A DNA stretch of 64,000 bases, taken from Thermomonas sp. GTDB taxonomy: Bacteria; Pseudomonadota; Gammaproteobacteria; Xanthomonadales; Xanthomonadaceae. The DNA is taken from NCBI RefSeq assembly GCF_023953935.1, contig NZ_JAMLIW010000009.1:1-64000 (forward strand). Reading direction: 5' to 3'. The position numbers were made by a program, and so were the translations under genes. The first letter of the stretch is position 1. Each line of letters starts with the position of its first letter. Positions 1-37,436 of this stretch are shown here, one piece after another. The notes beneath the pieces were generated by a model, which saw only the letters and a program-made list of their open reading frames with translations, was not told the origin of the DNA and did no database searches.

Positions 1-3000
1 ACTGGCCGAATTGCGCACGGTGTTCGGCGAAGACCTGCATCTGGAGCTGACCCGTACCGGCCGCGATGGCGAGGAGGCCTTCAACCACTTCGCACTGCAC
101 GCGTCCGGCCGGCTCGCCCTGCCGCTGCTCGCCAGCAATGACGTGCGTTTCCTCGACGCCGCCGGCTTCGGTGCGCACGAGGCGCGGGTGTGCATCGCCA
201 GCGGTCGGGTGCTGAACGATCCGCGCCGCCCGCGTGAATACAGCGCCCAGCAATTCCTGCGCTCGAGCGAGGACATGGTCGAGTTGTTCGCCGACGTGCC
301 TGACGCGCTCGACAACACGGTCGCGCTGGCGCAGCGTTGCAACCTCGAGCTCCAATTCGGCACCTACCATCTGCCGGCCTATCCGGTGCCGTCCGATGAG
401 ACGCTGGAAAGCTGGATCCGCAGCCAGGCGCGCGCCGGGCTGTCCGCGCGGCTGGAGAAAAATCCGCTGGCCCCGGGCAAGACCCGCGAAGACTACGACG
501 CGCGTCTGGAATTCGAGCTGGACACCATCATCAAGATGGGCTTCCCCGGCTACTTCCTGATCGTGGCCGACTTCATCCAGTGGGGCAAGAATCAAGGCAT
601 CCCGATCGGCCCCGGTCGCGGTTCCGGCGCCGGCTCGCTGGTGGCGTGGGCGCTGCAGATCACCGACCTCGACCCGCTGCCCTACAACCTGCTGTTCGAG
701 CGCTTCCTGAATCCCGAACGCGTGTCGATGCCCGACTTCGACATTGATTTCTGCATGGACCGGCGCGACGAAGTCATCGACTACGTGGCGCGCAAGTACG
801 GCCGCGATCGCGTCTCCCAGATCATCACCTACGGCACCATGGCCGCCAAGGCAGTGCTGCGCGATGTCGGCCGCATACAGAGCCTGGGCTATGGCTTCGT
901 CAACGACCTGGCGAAACTGATCCCGCTGCAACCGGCAGACCCATTGACGCTGGACGACGTCATCGGCCGCAGCAAACGCGCGCAGGATGATGAAAAACGC
1001 TGCGTCAGCGAGATCAAGGAGCGCTACGAAACCGACGATGTGGTCCGCGACCTGATCGATCTTGCGCTGCAGCTGGAAGGCCTGGCCCGCAGCGCCGGCA
1101 AACACGCCGGCGGCGTGGTGATCGCGCCGACCCCGCTGTCGGATTTTTGCCCGCTGTACGCCGAGCACGACCACGACAACCTCGGCAAGAACCCCGTCAC
1201 CCAGTTCGACAAGGACGACGTGGAAGCGGTGGGCCTGGTGAAATTCGACTTCCTCGGCCTGCGCACGCTGACGATCATCGACTGGGCGGTGAAGGCGGTG
1301 AACGGAAACCGTGATTCGTCATTGGTGATTGGTGATTCGAAAAAGCAAAGCTCCGGCACTTCCGAATCACCAATCACCAATCACCAATCACGCGCTCCCA
1401 TCGACATCACCGCCATCCCGCTGGATGACGCCAGCGTCTATCGCGACATCTTCGCCAAGGGCAACACCGGCTCGGTATTCCAGTTCGAATCCTCCGGCAT
1501 GCGCCGCTGGCTGAAGAAGGCCAAGCCAAGCCGGTTCGAGGATCTGATCGCGCTGAACGCACTCTATCGCCCGGGGCCGATGGACATGATTCCCTCGTTC
1601 GTGGAGCGCAAGCACCACCGGGAACGCTTCGACTATCCCGACCCGCGTACTGCGGCCATGCTTCGCGAGACCTACGGCATCATGGTCTACCAGGAGCAGG
1701 TGATGCAGATGGCGCAGATCGTCGGCGGCTATTCGCTGGGCGGCGCCGACCTGCTGCGGCGGGCGATGGGCAAGAAGGTGCCGGCCGAGATGGCCAAACA
1801 TCGCGAGATTTTCCGCGAAGGCGCGGCCAAGGGCGGCGTGGAGGCTGCCAAGGCCGATGAAATCTTCGACCTGATGGAGAAGTTCGCCGGCTACGGCTTC
1901 AACAAATCGCATGCCGCCGCCTATTCGCTGGTCGCCTACCAGACCGCGTGGCTGAAGCAGTACTACCCGGCTGAGTTCATGGCGGCGACGCTGTCTTCGG
2001 ACATGGACAAGACCGACAAGGTGGTCGGCTTCCTCGAAGAAGCGCAGGCCCTCGGCCTGACCATCCTGCCACCTGACGTGAACGTCTCCGGCTACATGTT
2101 CGAGGCCACCGCGCCCGACACGATCCGCTATGGCCTGGGCGCCGTGAAGGGCGTCGGCTACGGCGTCTGCGCGGCAATCGCCGATGCCCGCGCCGACGCC
2201 GGGCCGTTCAAGGACCTGCTGGATTTCTGCCAGCGGGTATCCGCCAGCGGGATGAATAAACGCACGCTCGAAGCCTTGATCCTCGCCGGCGCCATGGACG
2301 GTCTGGCGCAAAACCGCGCCACGCTGATGCTGCAGCTTCCGGAAGCGATGAAAGCCACCGAACAGATGACGAAGAATCGCGAGGCCGGCATGTTCGACAT
2401 GTTCGGCGGTGGCGGGAACAGCGCCGAGATTCGGATCGAGCTTCCGGAGTCCGCGCCGTGGCCGCTCGCGCAGCGGCTGCAGGGAGAACGCGCCACGCTG
2501 GGGCTGTACCTCAGCGGCCACCCCATGGACCCCTGGCGAGAGGACGCCCGGGCCCTGGTCGGACATGACCTGTCGGCTGCGTCCGAATTGCTCGAACGCG
2601 CGGCGGCGGGCGGCTCGACGCAAGACGGGCGCAACTGGCGTCCAGTGGTCCAGGCGGTGTTCGCCGGCTGGGTCGTCGGCGTGCGCCCGAACGGGGATTC
2701 ACAAATCGTCGTCCAGCTGGAAGATGGCGGCGGTCGGCTCGAATGCGGTTTTTTCGACGAACAGAAGACGACGTTCTCGCAGCTGCTCACCCGTGACCGC
2801 ATCCTCGTGATCGAAGGGGCCCTGCGCGAGGATTTCAACGGCGAAAACATCACCCTCAGGGTGTCCCGTTGCTGGGATTTCGCCCAGCTGTGCAGCCAGC
2901 AGGTGCGCGGCGTGGCGATTCGCGTTGACCTGCGCGAACCAACCAACGCGGCGCAGCTGGAGCAGACGCTTTCCGAGCACGCCGGGGACACGCCGGTACT

Positions 3001-3157
3001 GATCGAGGCCATGACCGCCGCCGGCATCGGCCGCCTGCGCCTGAACGGCGGGCGCGGCCTGCGCATGGATGAACGCCTCGCCAGCTTGCTGCGCAGCCTG
3101 CCCGGCGTCAGCAAGGTCAATCTGCGGTTCGACCGACCCTGGGCACCATCCCATTGA
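1..3157 (+). CDS. dnaE: DNA polymerase III subunit alpha, 5'-truncated by window edge
   Basis: Replicative polymerase catalytic subunit. The frame is open to the left edge (the TTG at 11 is an internal Leu codon), so the gene starts outside; about 1051 residues are visible and roughly the first 130-150 (most of the PHP domain) are missing. Catalytic Asp pair in PDFDIDF near visible residue 245 and the third Asp in KFDFLGLRTL near residue 416; helix-hairpin-helix and OB regions follow, and the C-terminus is intact. About 20 residues after the third catalytic Asp there is an insertion of roughly 22 residues relative to E. coli DnaE, encoded by a palindromic repeat at 1310-1392 that keeps the frame. 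accA follows 40 bp downstream, the usual xanthomonad order. Confidence 0.97.
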   Translation, partial: LAELRTVFGEDLHLELTRTGRDGEEAFNHFALHASGRLALPLLASNDVRFLDAAGFGAHEARVCIASGRVLNDPRRPREYSAQQFLRSSEDMVELFADVPDALDNTVALAQRCNLELQFGTYHLPAYPVPSDETLESWIRSQARAGLSARLEKNPLAPGKTREDYDARLEFELDTIIKMGFPGYFLIVADFIQWGKNQGIPIGPGRGSGAGSLVAWALQITDLDPLPYNLLFERFLNPERVSMPDFDIDFCMDRRDEVIDYVARKYGRDRVSQIITYGTMAAKAVLRDVGRIQSLGYGFVNDLAKLIPLQPADPLTLDDVIGRSKRAQDDEKRCVSEIKERYETDDVVRDLIDLALQLEGLARSAGKHAGGVVIAPTPLSDFCPLYAEHDHDNLGKNPVTQFDKDDVEAVGLVKFDFLGLRTLTIIDWAVKAVNGNRDSSLVIGDSKKQSSGTSESPITNHQSRAPIDITAIPLDDASVYRDIFAKGNTGSVFQFESSGMRRWLKKAKPSRFEDLIALNALYRPGPMDMIPSFVERKHHRERFDYPDPRTAAMLRETYGIMVYQEQVMQMAQIVGGYSLGGADLLRRAMGKKVPAEMAKHREIFREGAAKGGVEAAKADEIFDLMEKFAGYGFNKSHAAAYSLVAYQTAWLKQYYPAEFMAATLSSDMDKTDKVVGFLEEAQALGLTILPPDVNVSGYMFEATAPDTIRYGLGAVKGVGYGVCAAIADARADAGPFKDLLDFCQRVSASGMNKRTLEALILAGAMDGLAQNRATLMLQLPEAMKATEQMTKNREAGMFDMFGGGGNSAEIRIELPESAPWPLAQRLQGERATLGLYLSGHPMDPWREDARALVGHDLSAASELLERAAAGGSTQDGRNWRPVVQAVFAGWVVGVRPNGDSQIVVQLEDGGGRLECGFFDEQKTTFSQLLTRDRILVIEGALREDFNGENITLRVSRCWDFAQLCSQQVRGVAIRVDLREPTNAAQLEQTLSEHAGDTPVLIEAMTAAGIGRLRLNGGRGLRMDERLASLLRSLPGVSKVNLRFDRPWAPSH
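1310..1392. repeat. palindromic heptamer element inside dnaE
   Basis: Two 30-base arms (1310-1339 and 1363-1392) are inverted copies matching at 28 of 30 positions; the inner 19 bases are perfect. Each arm is made of TGATTGG-type heptamers around a 23-base loop. The element is read through in frame by dnaE and encodes a Ser/Gly/polar stretch. It resembles in concept the in-frame palindromic elements described in Rickettsia, but the sequence is different. It could form a strong hairpin in DNA or mRNA. Confidence 0.9.
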
Positions 3158-10476: not shown

Positions 10477-10680
10477 AATCCCGTTCGTGGCGAACCAGAA
10501 GTCCCGCCCAAAATCCCGTTCGTGGTGAGCCTGTCGAACCATGAACGGGATTTGGCTGATTCCGTCCGTGGTGAGCCAGAAGTCCCGCACAAAAAATCCC
10601 GTTCGTGGTGAGCCTGTCGAACCATGAACGGGATTTGGCTGATTCCGTCCGTGGTTCGACAGGCTCACCACGAACGGAAT
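10477..10680. repeat. tandem REP-like array, intergenic
   Basis: Two direct copies of an 83-bp unit (cores CGTTCGTGGTGAGCCTG... at 10515-10549 and 10598-10632), a partial degenerate copy before them (10479-10510), and an inverted copy at 10643-10680. Each core is itself an imperfect palindrome (GTTCGTGGT / ACCATGAAC). The same core occurs twice inside metG (36461-36570). This type of short palindrome is scattered in many proteobacterial genomes. The gap 10303-10785 holds only this array and the hairpins listed; translated frames across it are repeat artefacts. Confidence 0.9.
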
Positions 10681-11200: not shown

Positions 11201-12352
11201 TCAACCGCGAAGCAGCCCATTCATCGGCACCAGCGCAGCGCTGTCAGGGAACACGCGGCCTGACAGCGCTGCCAGATCCAGGCCCAGATGGTCGCGCAGC
11301 ACGCCCTTGAACAGGGCGCGCATGTCGGTGGTGGCAAGCAGGTCGCGGCCTTCGTTGAGCTGGTTCTTCGCCAGGCCGGGCCAGTCACCGGCGATGCGCC
11401 CGCCCTTGACCGCACCGCCGGCCAGGAACGAGATCCCGCCGGTGCCGTGATCGGTGCCGCCGGTGCCGTTGATCGCCGCAGTGCGGCCGAACTCGGTGAC
11501 GATCGCGATCACGGTATTGCCCCAAATGGGGGCCGCGCCGTCGTGGAAACCCTTGAGCCCGGCATCCAGTTCAGCCAGTTTGCGATCCAGCACGGCCAGT
11601 TCGCCGCCATGGGTATCCCAGCCGGTGTCTTCGACAAAACCAATCCGCGGCCCGGTCGACGCGGACATGAATTTCGCCGCCGCCGCCATCGCCTGCGGCA
11701 GGCGCATCCCGCCGCGCTCGGCTGTCCCCATCGACTCCATCCGCGTGTCAATGGCGGCAAACGTGGGTGCCAGCACGGCATCGGCGGCATACAGCTGCTG
11801 CAACTGCCGCCACAGGATCGGATCCACGCCATTGGTCAAGGGCGGTGACCAGGTCGAGACATCACCGCTGCCACGCATCGCCAGCGGCATCACCGCCGAC
11901 AGCGCCAGGCCCTTGCTGCCCGGCAGCGCGGCCACGCAGCGATTGAGCCAGCCGGTGGTGCCACTGGTGCCGGTGGTACCATTTTCCACGCAGTCCTGCG
12001 CTTCGAAATGCGAGCGCTGCCGATACGGCGGCGCCACCGCCAGCACCGGCAGGAATTGCTTGCCGGCAAACAGCTCGGCGCAGAACTGCAATTTGCCGTG
12101 CAGGGCGAAATCGCTGTCCAGGCGCAGCGCCTGCGGCTGGCCCTGGGCTTGGGTGAAGGATCCGCGCAAACCGGCAAAGGCCGGATCGCCGATCGGCTGC
12201 AACGCGTGCAGGCCATCCAGCCCGCCGCGCAGCAGCACCAGCAGGAAGCGCGTATCCGCTGCCGAGGAAGCGGCCAGTGCGAATTTCGGCAAGGCAGCAC
12301 AAACCAAAGCACCGGCACCGAAGCCGAGAAAACCGCGTCGATTCAGTTGCAT
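11201..12352 (-). CDS. DUF1501 family twin-arginine exported protein
   Basis: 383 residues. Twin-arginine signal at the N-terminus (NRRGFLGFGAGALV, cleavage near ALA), so export in folded form is predicted. The body has the DUF1501 (sulfatase-like, alkaline phosphatase fold) features: LVLLRGGLDGLHALQP near residue 36, DTGWDTHGG and VTEFGRT toward the C-terminus, and the GTDHGTGG metal-binding-like segment. It begins one base after the stop of the DUF1800 gene, and the pair occurs together in many bacteria; substrates are unknown. Confidence 0.9.
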   Translation of the reverse strand: MQLNRRGFLGFGAGALVCAALPKFALAASSAADTRFLLVLLRGGLDGLHALQPIGDPAFAGLRGSFTQAQGQPQALRLDSDFALHGKLQFCAELFAGKQFLPVLAVAPPYRQRSHFEAQDCVENGTTGTSGTTGWLNRCVAALPGSKGLALSAVMPLAMRGSGDVSTWSPPLTNGVDPILWRQLQQLYAADAVLAPTFAAIDTRMESMGTAERGGMRLPQAMAAAAKFMSASTGPRIGFVEDTGWDTHGGELAVLDRKLAELDAGLKGFHDGAAPIWGNTVIAIVTEFGRTAAINGTGGTDHGTGGISFLAGGAVKGGRIAGDWPGLAKNQLNEGRDLLATTDMRALFKGVLRDHLGLDLAALSGRVFPDSAALVPMNGLLRG

Positions 12353-14864: not shown

Positions 14865-16645
14865 GCGCACCGGCCAGCAATCGATTCACGGCGGTGGCGG
14901 GGGCCTTCGTCTATCTGCAGGTGACGTCGCTGGCCAACAACCTGCGCCGACGCCTGCAACGCCTGCGCCAGCCAAAATACCTGCTGGGCGCATTGGCGGG
15001 CGCGGCCTATCTGTACGCCTTCGTGATCCGGCACATGCTGCAGGGCGCGCAATCGCAATCGCAGGTGATGCAGCATGTGCCGGCGGTCTTGCTCTCCGAT
15101 CTGCCGATCGTGGTGGCGCTGGTCTTGCTGCTGTTCCTGTGGCTGGAATGGCTGTTCGCCGGCGATGGCGTGGAATTGGGATTTTCCGAAACCGAGATCG
15201 CCTTCCTGTTCCCGGCGCCGCTGACCCGCACCGCGCTGATCCAGTACAACCTGCTGCGCTCGCAGTTGCTGATTTTCTTCTCCGCATTCCTGCTCGGCCT
15301 GGTGTTCCGGCGCGGGGGTTCCCTGAACGGCCATCCATTGCAATACGCGACAGGGCTGTGGCTGCTGCTGTCGATGGGTCGGCTGCACCTGATGGCCGCG
15401 TCCTTCACCCGCGAACGCCTGCTGCTGGCGGGTCTGGGCTTGTGGCCACGTCGCCTGCTGGTGTTGGCAGCCGGCCTGGCACTGGCGGTGGCCAGCCTGT
15501 GGCCGATCCGTGATGTGCTGGTTCCGCCGTCGCTGTCGGGATGGTCGGATATTGCCCGCCTGCATCCATGGATTCGGGGCATCGTCGGGCAGACTCCGCT
15601 GGCGTGGTTGCTGCTGCCGCTGCAATGGGCGGTGGCGCCGATCTTCGCGACTGATGCCGGCAGTTTCCTGCGGGCCTTGCCGGCGTCCCTCGGGCTGCTG
15701 GTGCTGCACTACCTGTGGGCCTTGCGAGCGCAAGTTTCGTTCGAGGAAGGCTCGATCGCACATGCCCGCAAACGGGCCTTGCGACACGCCGCACGACAGC
15801 AAGGGCAGTTGCGCGAACGCCCGCCAGGCAAACCGCGAAGCGCCCCCTTCACCTTGCATGCAACCGGCGCTCCGGTCATGGCTTTCCTGTGGAAAGGCCT
15901 GCTGGCGATGGGGCCGCTGTACCGCCTGCGCAACTGGCTTGCCGCCTGCTTGATTACCTATGCCGTCATCCAGTGGACAGCCTTGCAGGCGTGGGGACGG
16001 CCCGTACTGCTAGCCTTTGGCGGCGGCTTCCTGATGATCGCCGGTTGGGGCCTGCTGTTCGGGCCGATGTTCATGCAACGCAGCGTGCAGCGTTTGCTGC
16101 AAACGCTCGATATCCAGAAGGCCGCGCCACTGGGCGGGCGCCAGATCGCCCTGGGCGAGTTGGTGACACCAACCGTGGTCATGACCGCCGTCTTGCTGTG
16201 GCTGCTGTGGATCGCCACGCTGTGCTTCGTGCTGGCCGGCGGCAGCGCGGCCTTCCCGGCAACCCGAATGATCGTGGCCGCACTGGGCATGGCCTTGCTG
16301 ATGCCGCCACTGTGCGCGCTGATGCTGTGCGTTCCGTTTGCCGGCAATCTGTATTTCCCGGCCTGGACCACGCCGAACAAGGGTGCAGGTCGTGGGGTCG
16401 AGGTGATGGGCCAGCGGATGATCTTCATGGCCGGCTACCTGCTGGCGCTGGTCGTGGCCCTGTTGCCGGCGGCACTGCTGGCGGGGCTGGTCTATTTGCT
16501 GGCCAACTGGATCGTCGGCCTGACCCCGGCACTGCTGCTGGCGGCACTTTGCGCCGCCGGCGTGCTGGTGGTGGAACTACGACTGGTGCTTGCGGTGCTG
16601 GGGCGCCGCATCGATGCGTTCGACCTGTCGCAGGAGCTGCGTTGA
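14861..16645 (+). CDS. ABC exporter permease-like integral membrane protein
   Basis: 594 residues from a TTG start overlapping the ATPase stop. About twelve hydrophobic segments spread over the length, with a basic cytoplasmic loop near 295-330 (HARKRALRHAARQQG). It looks like the large exporter permeases that pair with a single ATPase; the substrate is unknown. The next gene is convergent. I do not recognise a specific family, and the assignment as permease rests on topology and coupling to the ATPase. Confidence 0.8.
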   Translation: MSAPASNRFTAVAGAFVYLQVTSLANNLRRRLQRLRQPKYLLGALAGAAYLYAFVIRHMLQGAQSQSQVMQHVPAVLLSDLPIVVALVLLLFLWLEWLFAGDGVELGFSETEIAFLFPAPLTRTALIQYNLLRSQLLIFFSAFLLGLVFRRGGSLNGHPLQYATGLWLLLSMGRLHLMAASFTRERLLLAGLGLWPRRLLVLAAGLALAVASLWPIRDVLVPPSLSGWSDIARLHPWIRGIVGQTPLAWLLLPLQWAVAPIFATDAGSFLRALPASLGLLVLHYLWALRAQVSFEEGSIAHARKRALRHAARQQGQLRERPPGKPRSAPFTLHATGAPVMAFLWKGLLAMGPLYRLRNWLAACLITYAVIQWTALQAWGRPVLLAFGGGFLMIAGWGLLFGPMFMQRSVQRLLQTLDIQKAAPLGGRQIALGELVTPTVVMTAVLLWLLWIATLCFVLAGGSAAFPATRMIVAALGMALLMPPLCALMLCVPFAGNLYFPAWTTPNKGAGRGVEVMGQRMIFMAGYLLALVVALLPAALLAGLVYLLANWIVGLTPALLLAALCAAGVLVVELRLVLAVLGRRIDAFDLSQELR

Positions 16646-25514: not shown

Positions 25515-25575
25515 CCGTCTCCCGTCTCCCGTCTCCCGTCTCCCGTCTCCCGTCTCCCGTCTCCCGTCTCCCGTC
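25515..25575. repeat. heptanucleotide microsatellite between greB and rimO
   Basis: Eight perfect copies of CCGTCTC plus five bases fill the whole space between the greB stop (25512-25514) and the rimO stop (25574-25576). It is homopurine on the minus strand (GAGACGG units). Because it is 61 bp of perfect 7-mers it is likely to vary in copy number between isolates. It might act as a spacer or terminator region for the convergent genes. Confidence 0.95.
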
Positions 25576-30715: not shown

Positions 30716-30819
30716 GCCGTGTGGATGGACCGCGTGGGGACAATCGGCGCCAAGGATGGCGCCGATTAGCCTACAGGGACGTACTTGCGGCGTGTCCCCA
30801 CGCGGTCCATCCACACGGC
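30716..30819. repeat. long nested inverted repeat between apbC and dcd
   Basis: Perfect 26-base inverted arms (30716-30741 and 30794-30819) enclose a second hairpin with 11-bp arms (AATCGGCGCCA/TGGCGCCGATT, 30742-30767, loop AGGA) and a third weaker stem (GGGAC...GTCCC). The structure occupies the 293-bp gap between apbC stop and dcd start, both minus strand. It looks like a mobile-type or REP/BIME-like element; no gene is visible in the gap. Confidence 0.9.
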
Positions 30820-34769: not shown

Positions 34770-36986
34770 ATGTCCCGCTCCGCACTCGTCACCAACGCCC
34801 TGCCCTATGCCAACGGCCCCCTGCATCTGGGCCATCTGGTCGGCTACATCCAGGCCGATATCTGGGTGCGGGCGCGGCGGATGCGCGGCGCTACGGTGCA
34901 CTACGTCTGCGCCGACGACACCCACGGCACGCCGATCATGCTGGCAGCGGAAAAGGCCGGCACCACGCCGGAGGCCTTCATCGCCGCCATCCAGCAAGGG
35001 CACGAACGCGACTTCGCCGCCTTCGGCGTGGCCTTCGACCACTACGACTCCACCAACTCGCCCACCAATCGCACCCTCACCGAGCAGATCTTCGCGCGCC
35101 TCGATGCCGGCGGCCACATCGCGCGCCGTAGCGTGGCCCAGCTGTACGACCCGGTCAAAGGCATGTTCCTGCCAGACCGCTACGTCAAGGGCACCTGCCC
35201 GAACTGCGGCGCGCCCGACCAGTACGGCGACAACTGCGAAGTTTGCGGCGCGGCCTATGCGCCGACCGAGCTGAAGGATCCGCGTTCGGCGGTTTCCGGC
35301 GCGACGCCCGAATTGCGCGACTCGGAACACTACTTTTTCGAAGTCGGCCGTTTCGACGCCTTCCTGCGCACGTGGCTGGCGGGTGACAGCGCCATCCCCG
35401 GCGTCAAGGCCAAGCTCAAGGAGTGGCTGGACGCCGAGGGCGGTTTGCGCGCCTGGGACATCTCCCGCGACGCACCGTATTTCGGTTTCGAGATTCCGGG
35501 CGCGCCAGGCAAGTATTTCTACGTGTGGCTGGATGCGCCGATCGGCTACCTGTCGGCCTTCCGCAACCTGTGCGACCGGCAGGGGCTCGACTACGACGCC
35601 TTCCTGAAGCCCGACAGCGCCGCCGAGCTGCACCACTTCATCGGCAAGGACATCGTCAATTTCCACGGCCTGTTCTGGCCGGCAGTCCTTCAGGGCAGCG
35701 GCCATCGCCCGCCCACGCGCCTGCACGTCAACGGCTACCTGACCGTGGACGGCGCCAAGATGAGCAAGTCGCGCGGCACCTTCATCATGGCCCGCACCTA
35801 TCTCGACAGCGGCCTCGATCCGGAAGCGCTGCGCTACTACTTCGCCGCCAAGTCCTCCGGCGGCGTGGATGACCTCGATCTGAACCTGGCCGATTTCGTG
35901 GCCCGGGTGAACAGCGATCTGGTCGGCAAGTTCGTCAACATCGCCAGCCGCTGCGCCGGTTTCATCGAAAAGCGCTTCGCCGGCCAACTGGCGGCGGCGC
36001 TGCCCGACGCCGCGCAGTACGCGCGCTTCGTGGCGGCGCTGGCCGAGGTGAGGACCGCCTATGAGGGCAACGATCCTGCCACCGCGATTCGCCAGATCAT
36101 GGCGTTGGCAGACGAGGCCAACCGCTACATCGACGAACACAAGCCGTGGGTGATCGCCAGGCAAGATGGCATGGAGACGCAACTGCAGGCGGTGTGCAGC
36201 CAGGGCTTGAACCTGTTCCGCGTGCTCGCCGCCGGGCTGGCCCCGATCCTGCCGCGCACCAGCGCCCAGGCTGCCGAGTTCCTCGCCGCGCCGGTCACCC
36301 ACTGGAGCGATCTCGATGCGCCACTGCTCGGACACGCCATCAATCCCTACCATCCACTGTTCACCCGCATCGACCAGAAGCAGATCGAGGCCATGGTGGA
36401 AGCCAGCAAGGACACCCTGCAGGCGGATGGCTCTCAGAGTGGCGCAAAGCAATCCTCGACCGTTCATGGTTCGACAAGCTCACCACGAACGGGCGAGAGT
36501 GCCTCCACGGGCGGAAGCACCGGCGCCACACGCTCAACCGTTCGTGGTGAGCCTGTCGAACCACGGACGGCCGCGACAGGCCTCACGCATGCTTCGTCGA
36601 ACTCCACCCCGACCGACAGCCGAAAGGCAGTCCAATCTCCAATTCCGAGTCCCGACCTCGTCACCATCGACGATTTCGCCAAGCTCGACCTGCGCATCGG
36701 TCGGGTGCTTGAATGCGACTTCGTCGAAGGCAGCGACAAGCTGTTGCGCTTCCTGCTCGACGCCGGCGAACTCGGCCAGCGGCAGATCTTCTCGGGCATC
36801 CGCGCCAGCTACGGCGAACCGGAAAAACTGGTCGGCCGCAGCGTGGTGTTCATCGCCAACCTCGCCCCGCGCAAGATGCGCTTCGGCGTGAGCGAAGGCA
36901 TGATCCTGTCGGCCGGCTTCGACGCCATCGCGCTGGCACTGCTCGACGCCGACCCCGCCGCCACACCGGGCATGCCTGTACGCTGA
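34770..36986 (+). CDS. metG: methionyl-tRNA synthetase with repeat-derived linker
   Basis: 738 residues, longer than the usual about 680-700. Class I signatures: HLGH in NGPLHLGHLVGYIQAD, zinc-binding C4 region CPNCGAPDQYGDNCEVCG, and KMSKS in GAKMSKSRGTF; anticodon domain, then a C-terminal EMAP-like tRNA-binding domain (IDDFAKLDLRIGRVLECDFVEGSDKLL). Between the last two (about residues 555-630) is a Ser/Thr/Gly-rich linker of about 75 residues, largely encoded by an inverted pair of REP-like repeats (36461-36570), versus about 20-25 residues in E. coli. Frame is maintained and both flanking domains look intact. Confidence 0.96.
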   Translation: MSRSALVTNALPYANGPLHLGHLVGYIQADIWVRARRMRGATVHYVCADDTHGTPIMLAAEKAGTTPEAFIAAIQQGHERDFAAFGVAFDHYDSTNSPTNRTLTEQIFARLDAGGHIARRSVAQLYDPVKGMFLPDRYVKGTCPNCGAPDQYGDNCEVCGAAYAPTELKDPRSAVSGATPELRDSEHYFFEVGRFDAFLRTWLAGDSAIPGVKAKLKEWLDAEGGLRAWDISRDAPYFGFEIPGAPGKYFYVWLDAPIGYLSAFRNLCDRQGLDYDAFLKPDSAAELHHFIGKDIVNFHGLFWPAVLQGSGHRPPTRLHVNGYLTVDGAKMSKSRGTFIMARTYLDSGLDPEALRYYFAAKSSGGVDDLDLNLADFVARVNSDLVGKFVNIASRCAGFIEKRFAGQLAAALPDAAQYARFVAALAEVRTAYEGNDPATAIRQIMALADEANRYIDEHKPWVIARQDGMETQLQAVCSQGLNLFRVLAAGLAPILPRTSAQAAEFLAAPVTHWSDLDAPLLGHAINPYHPLFTRIDQKQIEAMVEASKDTLQADGSQSGAKQSSTVHGSTSSPRTGESASTGGSTGATRSTVRGEPVEPRTAATGLTHASSNSTPTDSRKAVQSPIPSPDLVTIDDFAKLDLRIGRVLECDFVEGSDKLLRFLLDAGELGQRQIFSGIRASYGEPEKLVGRSVVFIANLAPRKMRFGVSEGMILSAGFDAIALALLDADPAATPGMPVR
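36461..36570. repeat. inverted pair of REP-like units inside metG
   Basis: An inverted copy (36461-36493, containing TTCGACAAGCTCACCACGAA) and a direct copy (36539-36570, TTCGTGGTGAGCCTGTCGAA) of the core found at 10.5 kb, about 45 bp apart. Arms pair over about 30 bases with few mismatches, so the mRNA can form a long hairpin inside the coding region. Encodes the low-complexity MetG linker. Confidence 0.9.
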
Positions 36987-37017: not shown

Positions 37018-37168
37018 GTCGCCCCCGCGCAGGCGGGGACCCAAGCATCATCGAACCTTACCTGAGCTTCATCGGACCGTCGTCCCCGCGCAGGCGGGGA
37101 TCCATGGACGTTGCTCTTTTACGCATGGCACACAAACGTCCATGGATGCCCGCCTGCGCGGGCATGAC
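37018..37168. repeat. REP-like units downstream of metG
   Basis: Three copies of a 26-base palindromic unit (core CCCCGCGCAGGCGGGGA): 37018-37043 and 37079-37104 direct, 37143-37168 inverted. The last two, with TCCATGGACGTT/AACGTCCATGGA between them, form a roughly 90-bp inverted repeat. A different family from the 10.5-kb array. No gene in this stretch. Confidence 0.9.
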
Positions 37169-37238
37169 GCTTCGAACTGGGTGGCGCCCAGAGCGCACAG
37201 TACCCACGAAACCGAACCACATCCACAGTCGTCAACTC

Positions 37239-37436
37239 GCTGCGCTGCGGCGCCTGCTGTAGCGAAGTCAAGGAGGAGCTGCCGCCCTTCGGGCGGCAGC
37301 GGGGGACATGAGCGAAAGCGGGCGCCGCAGCGCAGCGGGCGTGCAACGATCTCGCCGGAATTGGCAACGCCAACCCCAGACCTGCCACCCGAAGGACGGT
37401 AGCAGAGAACGTGAGCGAACGCAGCGCAGCGGGCGC
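37239..37436. repeat. duplicated hairpin module upstream of the RnfB-like gene
   Basis: Arms 37239-37257 and 37318-37336 are inverted copies (18 of 19, the mismatch being a G-U pair in RNA) enclosing a 9-bp hairpin at 37279-37299 (CTGCCGCCC, loop TTC). A related imperfect hairpin follows at 37382-37405, and the 15-mer GCAGCGCAGCGGGCG after TGAGCGAA recurs at 37327 and 37421, so the module is partly duplicated with a period near 94-103 bp. The 507-bp gap 36987-37493 contains only these repeats; a structured leader or non-coding RNA is possible but unproven. Confidence 0.75.

Follow-up and report, generated by a model that had tools for sequence, protein, structure and literature searches.

Tandem heptamers have been called the most abundant intergenic periodic repeats of prokaryotes, and their function is left without a clear clue in the consulted passages of the SPADE study (PMC6344855). 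Closest to the locus treated here are the GGGNATC heptamers of Xanthomonas and Nostoc (Rehm et al. 2015, PMC4692102), which are arranged in tandem and found genome-wide; two Xanthomonas genomes contain 70 and 75 inverted pairs of them, which are mostly intergenic (89-93%), and dnaE is named among the repeat-associated genes marked on the map, the consulted parts of that paper not stating whether the repeat lies inside or outside of the gene. Palindromes residing within genes have been described, as far as the consulted parts of the respective sources go, for Rickettsia, the palindromic elements of which (~150 bp) encode a conserved peptide and lie in frame in ORFs (PMC10969869), and for the mitochondrial genes of Nematomorpha, where coding inverted repeats have been gained and lost while their arms were kept alike, with template switching being discussed (PMC6649704). 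The consulted passages on the stem-loop families of PMC2267715 include no Xanthomonas, and a literature search, from the scope of which supplements and most subscription papers fell out, retrieved no publication describing a heptamer palindrome within either dnaE or purL.

Results

A heptamer-armed palindrome within dnaE of Thermomonas sp.

The dnaE gene at the start of the window, i.e., the whole 64,000-nucleotide stretch of Thermomonas sp. DNA analyzed here, encodes a product matching E. coli alpha (5fku) at an E-value of 4.4e-290 and showing PF07733, PF17657, PF14579 and PF01336 matches, the first of which lies upstream and the second downstream of the insert described below. The gene is apparently single-copy and complete, but divided over two contig ends: its N-terminus is found at the end of contig C9, the last ~100 bases of which repeat the start of C16, two mismatches being counted by eye.

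Table 1. Features of dnaE and of its palindromic element (window coordinates).
Feature	Position	Strand	Basis or remark
dnaE, DNA polymerase III alpha subunit	2..3157	+	open to stop; N-terminus on another contig end
Codon of Asp416, third catalytic Asp	1247..1249	+	invariant in 50 aligned DnaE
Heptamer-armed palindromic element	1310..1392	+	residues 437-464 of the dnaE open frame
Left arm, TGATTSG-type units (one being TCATTGG)	1310..1342	+	inverted-repeat search
Codon TCA, in place of the TGA stop of a canonical TGATTGG unit	1319..1321	+	codon listing
Centre, between the arms	1343..1359	+	box AAAAAGC straddles the left edge; centre varies between copies
Right arm, made of CCAATCA-type units and reverse-complementary to the left arm	1360..1392	+	inverted-repeat search

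The element is 83 bp long, and the inverted-repeat search delimits two 33-nt arms (91% complementary, 17 nt apart), the right one comprising two identical 13-nt copies 14 nt apart; the 30-base arms with a 28/30 match of the original prediction are the same structure. The TGATTGGTGATTGG dimer has six matches in the window when two mismatches are allowed, all of them inside 1312-1390, as opposed to a mean of 0.32 and a maximum of 3 in 100 shuffled windows. The mRNA hairpin thought possible for the element is supported as a strong predicted fold, with window positions 1300-1405 folding as RNA at -47 kcal/mol vs. -21.0 kcal/mol (sd 2.9) for 200 shuffles, none of which were as good (z -8.9). A known RNA family as the identity of the element was discarded, the search of the window having returned tRNA alone above the threshold.

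Between the VKFDFLGL and FQFES motifs, the host DnaE has 80 residues, while 57 or 58 are found in 20 of the 25 Thermomonas (host counted), and the net gain of 22 residues is just the addition that had been anticipated. The first inserted codon (CGT, residue 437) lies 21 residues past Asp416, which corresponds to the third catalytic Asp of E. coli alpha, a distance of about 20 residues having been claimed. Being “near the active site”, as the original prediction had it, is thus true of the sequence and not of the structure as modelled: in the predicted DnaE model (alignment of 50 sequences, mean pLDDT 85.7), the catalytic strand (414-419) is followed by a 22-residue helix (421-442), the insert being placed at the far end of the latter, and residues 442-463 have a pLDDT below 50. 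According to the model, the insert is a floppy loop beyond the helix, between the PF07733 and PF17657 stretches, that does not adjoin the active site. E. coli alpha has a short loop at this place.

Long loops between the same two motifs are also found in Thermomonas G022 and G015 (73 residues each), G023 (74) and G016 (102); that of G016 contains a different heptamer palindrome of the GGGAACC type, and that of G022, by eye, a GC-rich palindrome of another kind, the arms of which did not beat shuffles. An alignment to dnaE of the sister G021, judged by eye, shows ~17 nt of the host loop replaced and neither a clean empty site nor a target duplication at the insert; beside the dnaE copy, no target site duplication is evident by eye, the loop having diverged from that of the sisters. 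The idea of an ancestral protein sequence with a chance palindrome was rejected, as the residues are absent from most Thermomonas, and, with relatives differing at the loop rather than sharing identical residues throughout (the observation named beforehand as speaking against an insert), the insert reading stands.

A dispersed family in the host genome

The in-frame element proved, as had been suggested, to belong to a genome-wide heptamer family: TGATTGGTGATTGG has 138 exact matches in the 2.59-Mb host genome, and its reversed control has none. The stretches around the first 100 listed of these 138 matches contain 46 clusters of at least three units and, together with the window, 30 two-armed clusters, hence close inverted pairs are present in the family. 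Copies are usually arranged as CGT(GATTSGT)n followed by a box resembling AAAGAGC, a middle part that varies, a complementary box and finally (CCAATCA)m. In 18 of 27 cores (4.9 on average and at most 11 in shuffles), the box A[AG]{1,3}GC is located no more than 20 nt past the left arm, and read from the right side it is present in 22 of 27 (a count made without shuffles); it recurs across dnaE loops of differing heptamers, the observed 15 of 22, as compared to 7.1 when shuffled, being reached by 1 of 2000 shuffles. Outside dnaE and purL, 22 of 28 two-armed copies have no open frame in any of the six, and the remaining six have an open frame of some length, one of these (L072, minus strand) being open for at least 60 codons on each side of the copy, whereas the two-armed copies in dnaE and purL lie in long open frames. 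Arrays of three units of the broader KGAWYSG pattern are seen in only 4 of the 25 Thermomonas, and the host genome has 34 matches to GGGATTS arrays and none to GGGAATS arrays.

As for other heptamers in the window, there is one tandem CCCGTCT array (25515-25575, 61 nt), located exactly between two ORFs that presumably correspond to greA/greB and rimO. Inverted repeats at 10599-10677 and 36478-36552, the arms of which have CGTTCGTGGTGAG in common, are probably another dispersed palindrome family, and additional inverted repeats, the arms of which match exactly over 14 nt or more, lie at 11235-11272, 15028-15083, 30716-30819, 37085-37162 and 37238-37337.

Avoidance of in-frame stop codons by the coding copies

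In long TGATTSG arms, TGA arises in every forward frame. All 12 coding TGATTSG copies inspected (dnaE of the host G000, G267 and G140, purL of the host, and the eight purL loci that have two or more T-type units) avoid it in frame, having TCA (5), GAA (5) or CAA (2) instead, although the register is less sure for purL of G144, where the arm is interrupted by another segment. The TCATTSG unit is present in 5 of the 30 two-armed copies, including both coding ones (dnaE and purL). Such differing fixes to one and the same stop constraint argue, at the sequence level, that the coding element is translated.

purL as a second coding site

The second coding copy of the host genome resides in purL (FGAM synthase), the frame of which is open through the heptamer element. 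Another in-frame heptamer piece, consisting of a right arm only, is seen at 1760-1787 of the host purL locus (L059). The purL site was matched in 383 of 395 genomes, and at least four heptamer units were found in 57 of the 59 purL loci read (host not counted), which represent the top of ~87 genomes (hand count) whose match crossed the insert; the shorter matches among these may be insert-free. The arms are of the GATT (36), GAAT (20) and GACC (3) types, and their distribution over the purL tree requires 17 changes (10 for GATT and 9 for GAAT being forced by starred branches), as compared to 19.7 for shuffled labels, which were as low in 17 of 200 cases; arm types are thus weakly clustered. Within genus g18, GGGATTS-armed and GGGAATS-armed copies have a common length and much of the core in common, and it is possible that purL alleles have spread between species by recombination. 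Arms pair better with their own partners than with swapped ones both in dnaE (20.6 vs. 12.2, 23 loops) and in purL (19.4 vs. 14.6, 34 loops; p at most 0.0002).

The same dnaE loop across the family

A dnaE match was obtained for 386 of 395 genomes of the family (taken as Lysobacteraceae), less than one third of which were read at the DNA level. The 109 loci are a non-random set for which loci with a match running through the loop were fetched first; L129, L134 and L137 (loop not located by pattern) and L109, L117 and L120 (repeats of other rows) are kept out of it. The loop is shorter than 36 nt in 69 of the 109 loci, while 24 have period-7 inserts (z of at least 3) with loops of 48 to 630 nt, of which 16 show inverted arms above all 40 shuffles and eight do not. 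By eye, their heptamers include TGATTSG, GGGATTS, GGGAATS, GGGACTC, GGGACCC, GGGGACC, GGGAACC, GGGAGCC and others, with at least seven types represented, and the host insert, called unusual beforehand, is not a one-off.

On a DnaE tree built with the loop removed, the period-7 label needs at least 17 changes, gains or losses alike, of which 15 are forced by starred branches, vs. 21.9 for shuffled labels; the tree was built quickly and carries a warning of long branches (L133 with L223), and the in-family number is slightly lower, since L133, one of the 24, is an out-of-family outgroup on a very long branch (a MAG with a period-7 loop lacking significant inverted arms). Close relatives may differ in the heptamer, as in the pairs L189 (TGATTSG) and L197 (GGGAATC) or L190 (GGGATTC) and L198 (GGGAATC), or in the presence of an insert, as in L207 (GGGGACC), which stands beside Lysobacter enzymogenes without one; L194 (GGGAATC) stands beside L224, the KGRDSNHGP loop of which resembles what a deletion would leave behind of a TGATTC copy.

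The 210-residue dnaE loop of G371 (L222) contains, by eye, a GGGACCC-rich block of 93 nt repeated some six times in tandem, having grown by this block to ~200 extra residues. GC-rich palindrome-like inserts of the CTTCTCCC type are found in L010 (G022), L202 (G104) and L212 (G078), only the last of which beat shuffles for inverted arms, and in genus g46 (L209-L211, L214, L217-L219), the loop found here is longer, conserved and devoid of a palindrome. Outside the family, a Nitrosomonadales MAG (L129) has, by eye, a GGATTGA heptamer palindrome in the same loop, with only three array matches in its genome, which makes for a weak genome match.

Insert type and the resident genome heptamer

Among 16 carriers of the three countable types (one of them a remnant, and eight carriers of other types being uncounted), the dnaE insert type tops the three counts of the respective genome in 12 cases (permutation mean 5.5, p 0.0013) and fails to be so in four, G186 and G216 having counts of just 3 and 5 matches; leaving out the remnant gives 11 of 15 (p 0.004). 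The mean genome share of the insert type is 0.64 vs. 0.34 (p 5e-5), although the dnaE copy itself may enter the genome counts where it matches. Heptamer typing from ~40 kb per genome is too sparse alone. At least 30 TGATTSG array matches are found in 24 of the 395 genomes (hand count), which include all three TGATTSG dnaE carriers as well as the G119 remnant.

Discussion

The best explanation, and one that we consider rather probable, is that the dnaE element is a dispersed heptamer-armed hairpin tolerated in a disordered loop, with its arms being kept complementary by concerted evolution. It would be one copy of a family defined by tandem-heptamer arms and a short core, in which an A-R-GC box and a complementary box enclose a variable middle. 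Such copies may land in, or be copied to, many places, and among the coding ones those would survive that preserve the frame and lie in a disordered part of the protein. The dnaE copy would persist by being in frame and by having TCA for the single in-frame TGA of its arm, within a loop between palm and fingers that tolerates extra residues. Both the dnaE and the purL loop bear inserts of this kind repeatedly across the family, usually of the host-resident heptamer, with recurrent gain, loss or replacement at the dnaE site, and the arms might stay alike via slippage and template switching or via conversion from resident copies. The copies would be selfish or neutral, probably the former, and would spread from those already resident; a search for a gene mobilizing them, in which PF01797 was examined across the 25 Thermomonas, found none.

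Against this explanation stand the eight of 24 period-7 loops devoid of significant inverted arms, the lack of a clean empty site or target duplication in the by-eye comparison with G021, the four of 16 carriers in which the insert type does not follow the genome, the negative outcome of the search for a mobilizing gene, and the trees, as 17 changes are not many fewer than the shuffled 21.9 for dnaE, and the purL type changes are little below the shuffled ones, with interspecies recombination being possible there.

A lesser, yet real, possibility is that one or a few old insertions in the family ancestor have mostly been lost, with the heptamers of the remaining ones turning over in place. The inserts do occupy the same loop, and the first unit starts 9 nt past the conserved Asn codon in seven loops and 6 nt past it in five, so that 12 of 21 lie one codon apart or less, a regularity that, for a part of the loops, speaks for an old insertion and against the dispersed hairpin; the core common to the differently armed purL copies of g18 and the deletion-like remnant in G119 favour it too. 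The other nine loops start anywhere from 2 to 31 nt (two more could not be safely placed), which is a weak counterargument, since any unit added would move the start as well. Weighing more are the short loop in most loci read with carriers scattered among them, and the insert type tracking the resident genome heptamer, which means that the turnover is not purely local. The codon phase of the arms, initially used as proof of independent insertion, was withdrawn, as each 7-nt unit gained shifts the phase, and because of this our confidence in the dispersed hairpin was lowered a little and that in an old insertion raised a little.

Movement of the element between species within dnaE or purL segments by homologous recombination, instead of fresh insertion, is likewise only a tentative option. 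G000, G267 and G140, representing three genera, have CGTGATTCGTCATTGGTGA at the same place, and their near-identical left half, fitting the transfer of a dnaE segment as it does, has to be counted against the dispersed hairpin; arm types are also patchy among close purL. However, G000 clusters with Thermomonas by its DnaE flanks, the few TGATTSG-rich genomes include that of the G119 remnant and those of all three TGATTSG carriers, and a single spreading allele cannot supply several heptamer types.

Going further than the dispersed hairpin as set out above, heptamer-armed hairpins might form a distinct mobile or self-converting class, recognized by shape, 7-nt period and A-R-GC core whatever the sequence of the heptamer. 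In each lineage, older copies, those within dnaE and purL among them, would then have their two arms actively converted to the heptamer prevailing there; we find this unlikely, albeit worth stating, and such a conversion would resemble the turnover of satellites or telomere repeats.

That the hairpin is kept for the regulation of dnaE (pausing, mRNA folding) or for the tuning of the polymerase would suit the very stable predicted fold and the better pairing of own arms, but we deem it improbable, considering that most loci, sisters included, make do with the short loop, that the period-7 loops vary more than tenfold in length and in a third of cases have no significant arms, and that arm matching would follow from template switching, too. 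Even less is to be said for a REP-type element that owes its movement to a RAYT (Y1) transposase: PF01797 matches are present in G000 and the other three heptamer-carrying Thermomonas (4/4), but also in 14 of the 21 others (18/25 overall), which is no specific association and speaks against RAYT as the mover, and REP elements do not usually have arms built of heptamers. A G-quadruplex repeat of the kind suggested for the GGGNATC heptamers is hardly credible: the period and the inverted pairing are as in Xanthomonas (PMC4692102, as far as consulted), but the TGATTSG units have no GGG run, and only period 7 and the hairpin are common features.

What makes the dispersed hairpin worth pursuing is, arguably, the site itself: a fixed, alignable coding position at which repeats come, go and change their unit between near-sisters amounts to a “natural assay”, in which every event has to respect reading frame, stop codons and flanks, and candidate donors are to be found in the genome itself. 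This loop of a replicative polymerase, which can accept from ~5 to ~200 extra residues, is a useful place to study the spread of common, but unexplained, heptamer repeats.

Compared with the described systems, as far as the consulted parts of the sources allow, the family resembles the GGGNATC repeats (PMC4692102) in its tandem 7-nt units dispersed over the genome and in its close inverted pairs, and differs from them in the TGATTSG unit of the dnaE copy, which is without a GGG tract; in-frame residence at the fixed dnaE and purL sites, unit turnover and stop avoidance appear to be new with respect to Rehm et al. (2015). As with the Rickettsia palindromic elements (PMC10969869), a palindrome lies in frame inside genes, here dnaE and purL, but it is 83 bp long, both heptamer and peptide vary by species, and one gene site has been occupied repeatedly. 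Unlike the palindromes of Nematomorpha (PMC6649704), those seen here are built of heptamer units and have a dispersed intergenic family behind them, and the inverted arms and in-frame copies treated here go beyond the consulted SPADE passages (PMC6344855).
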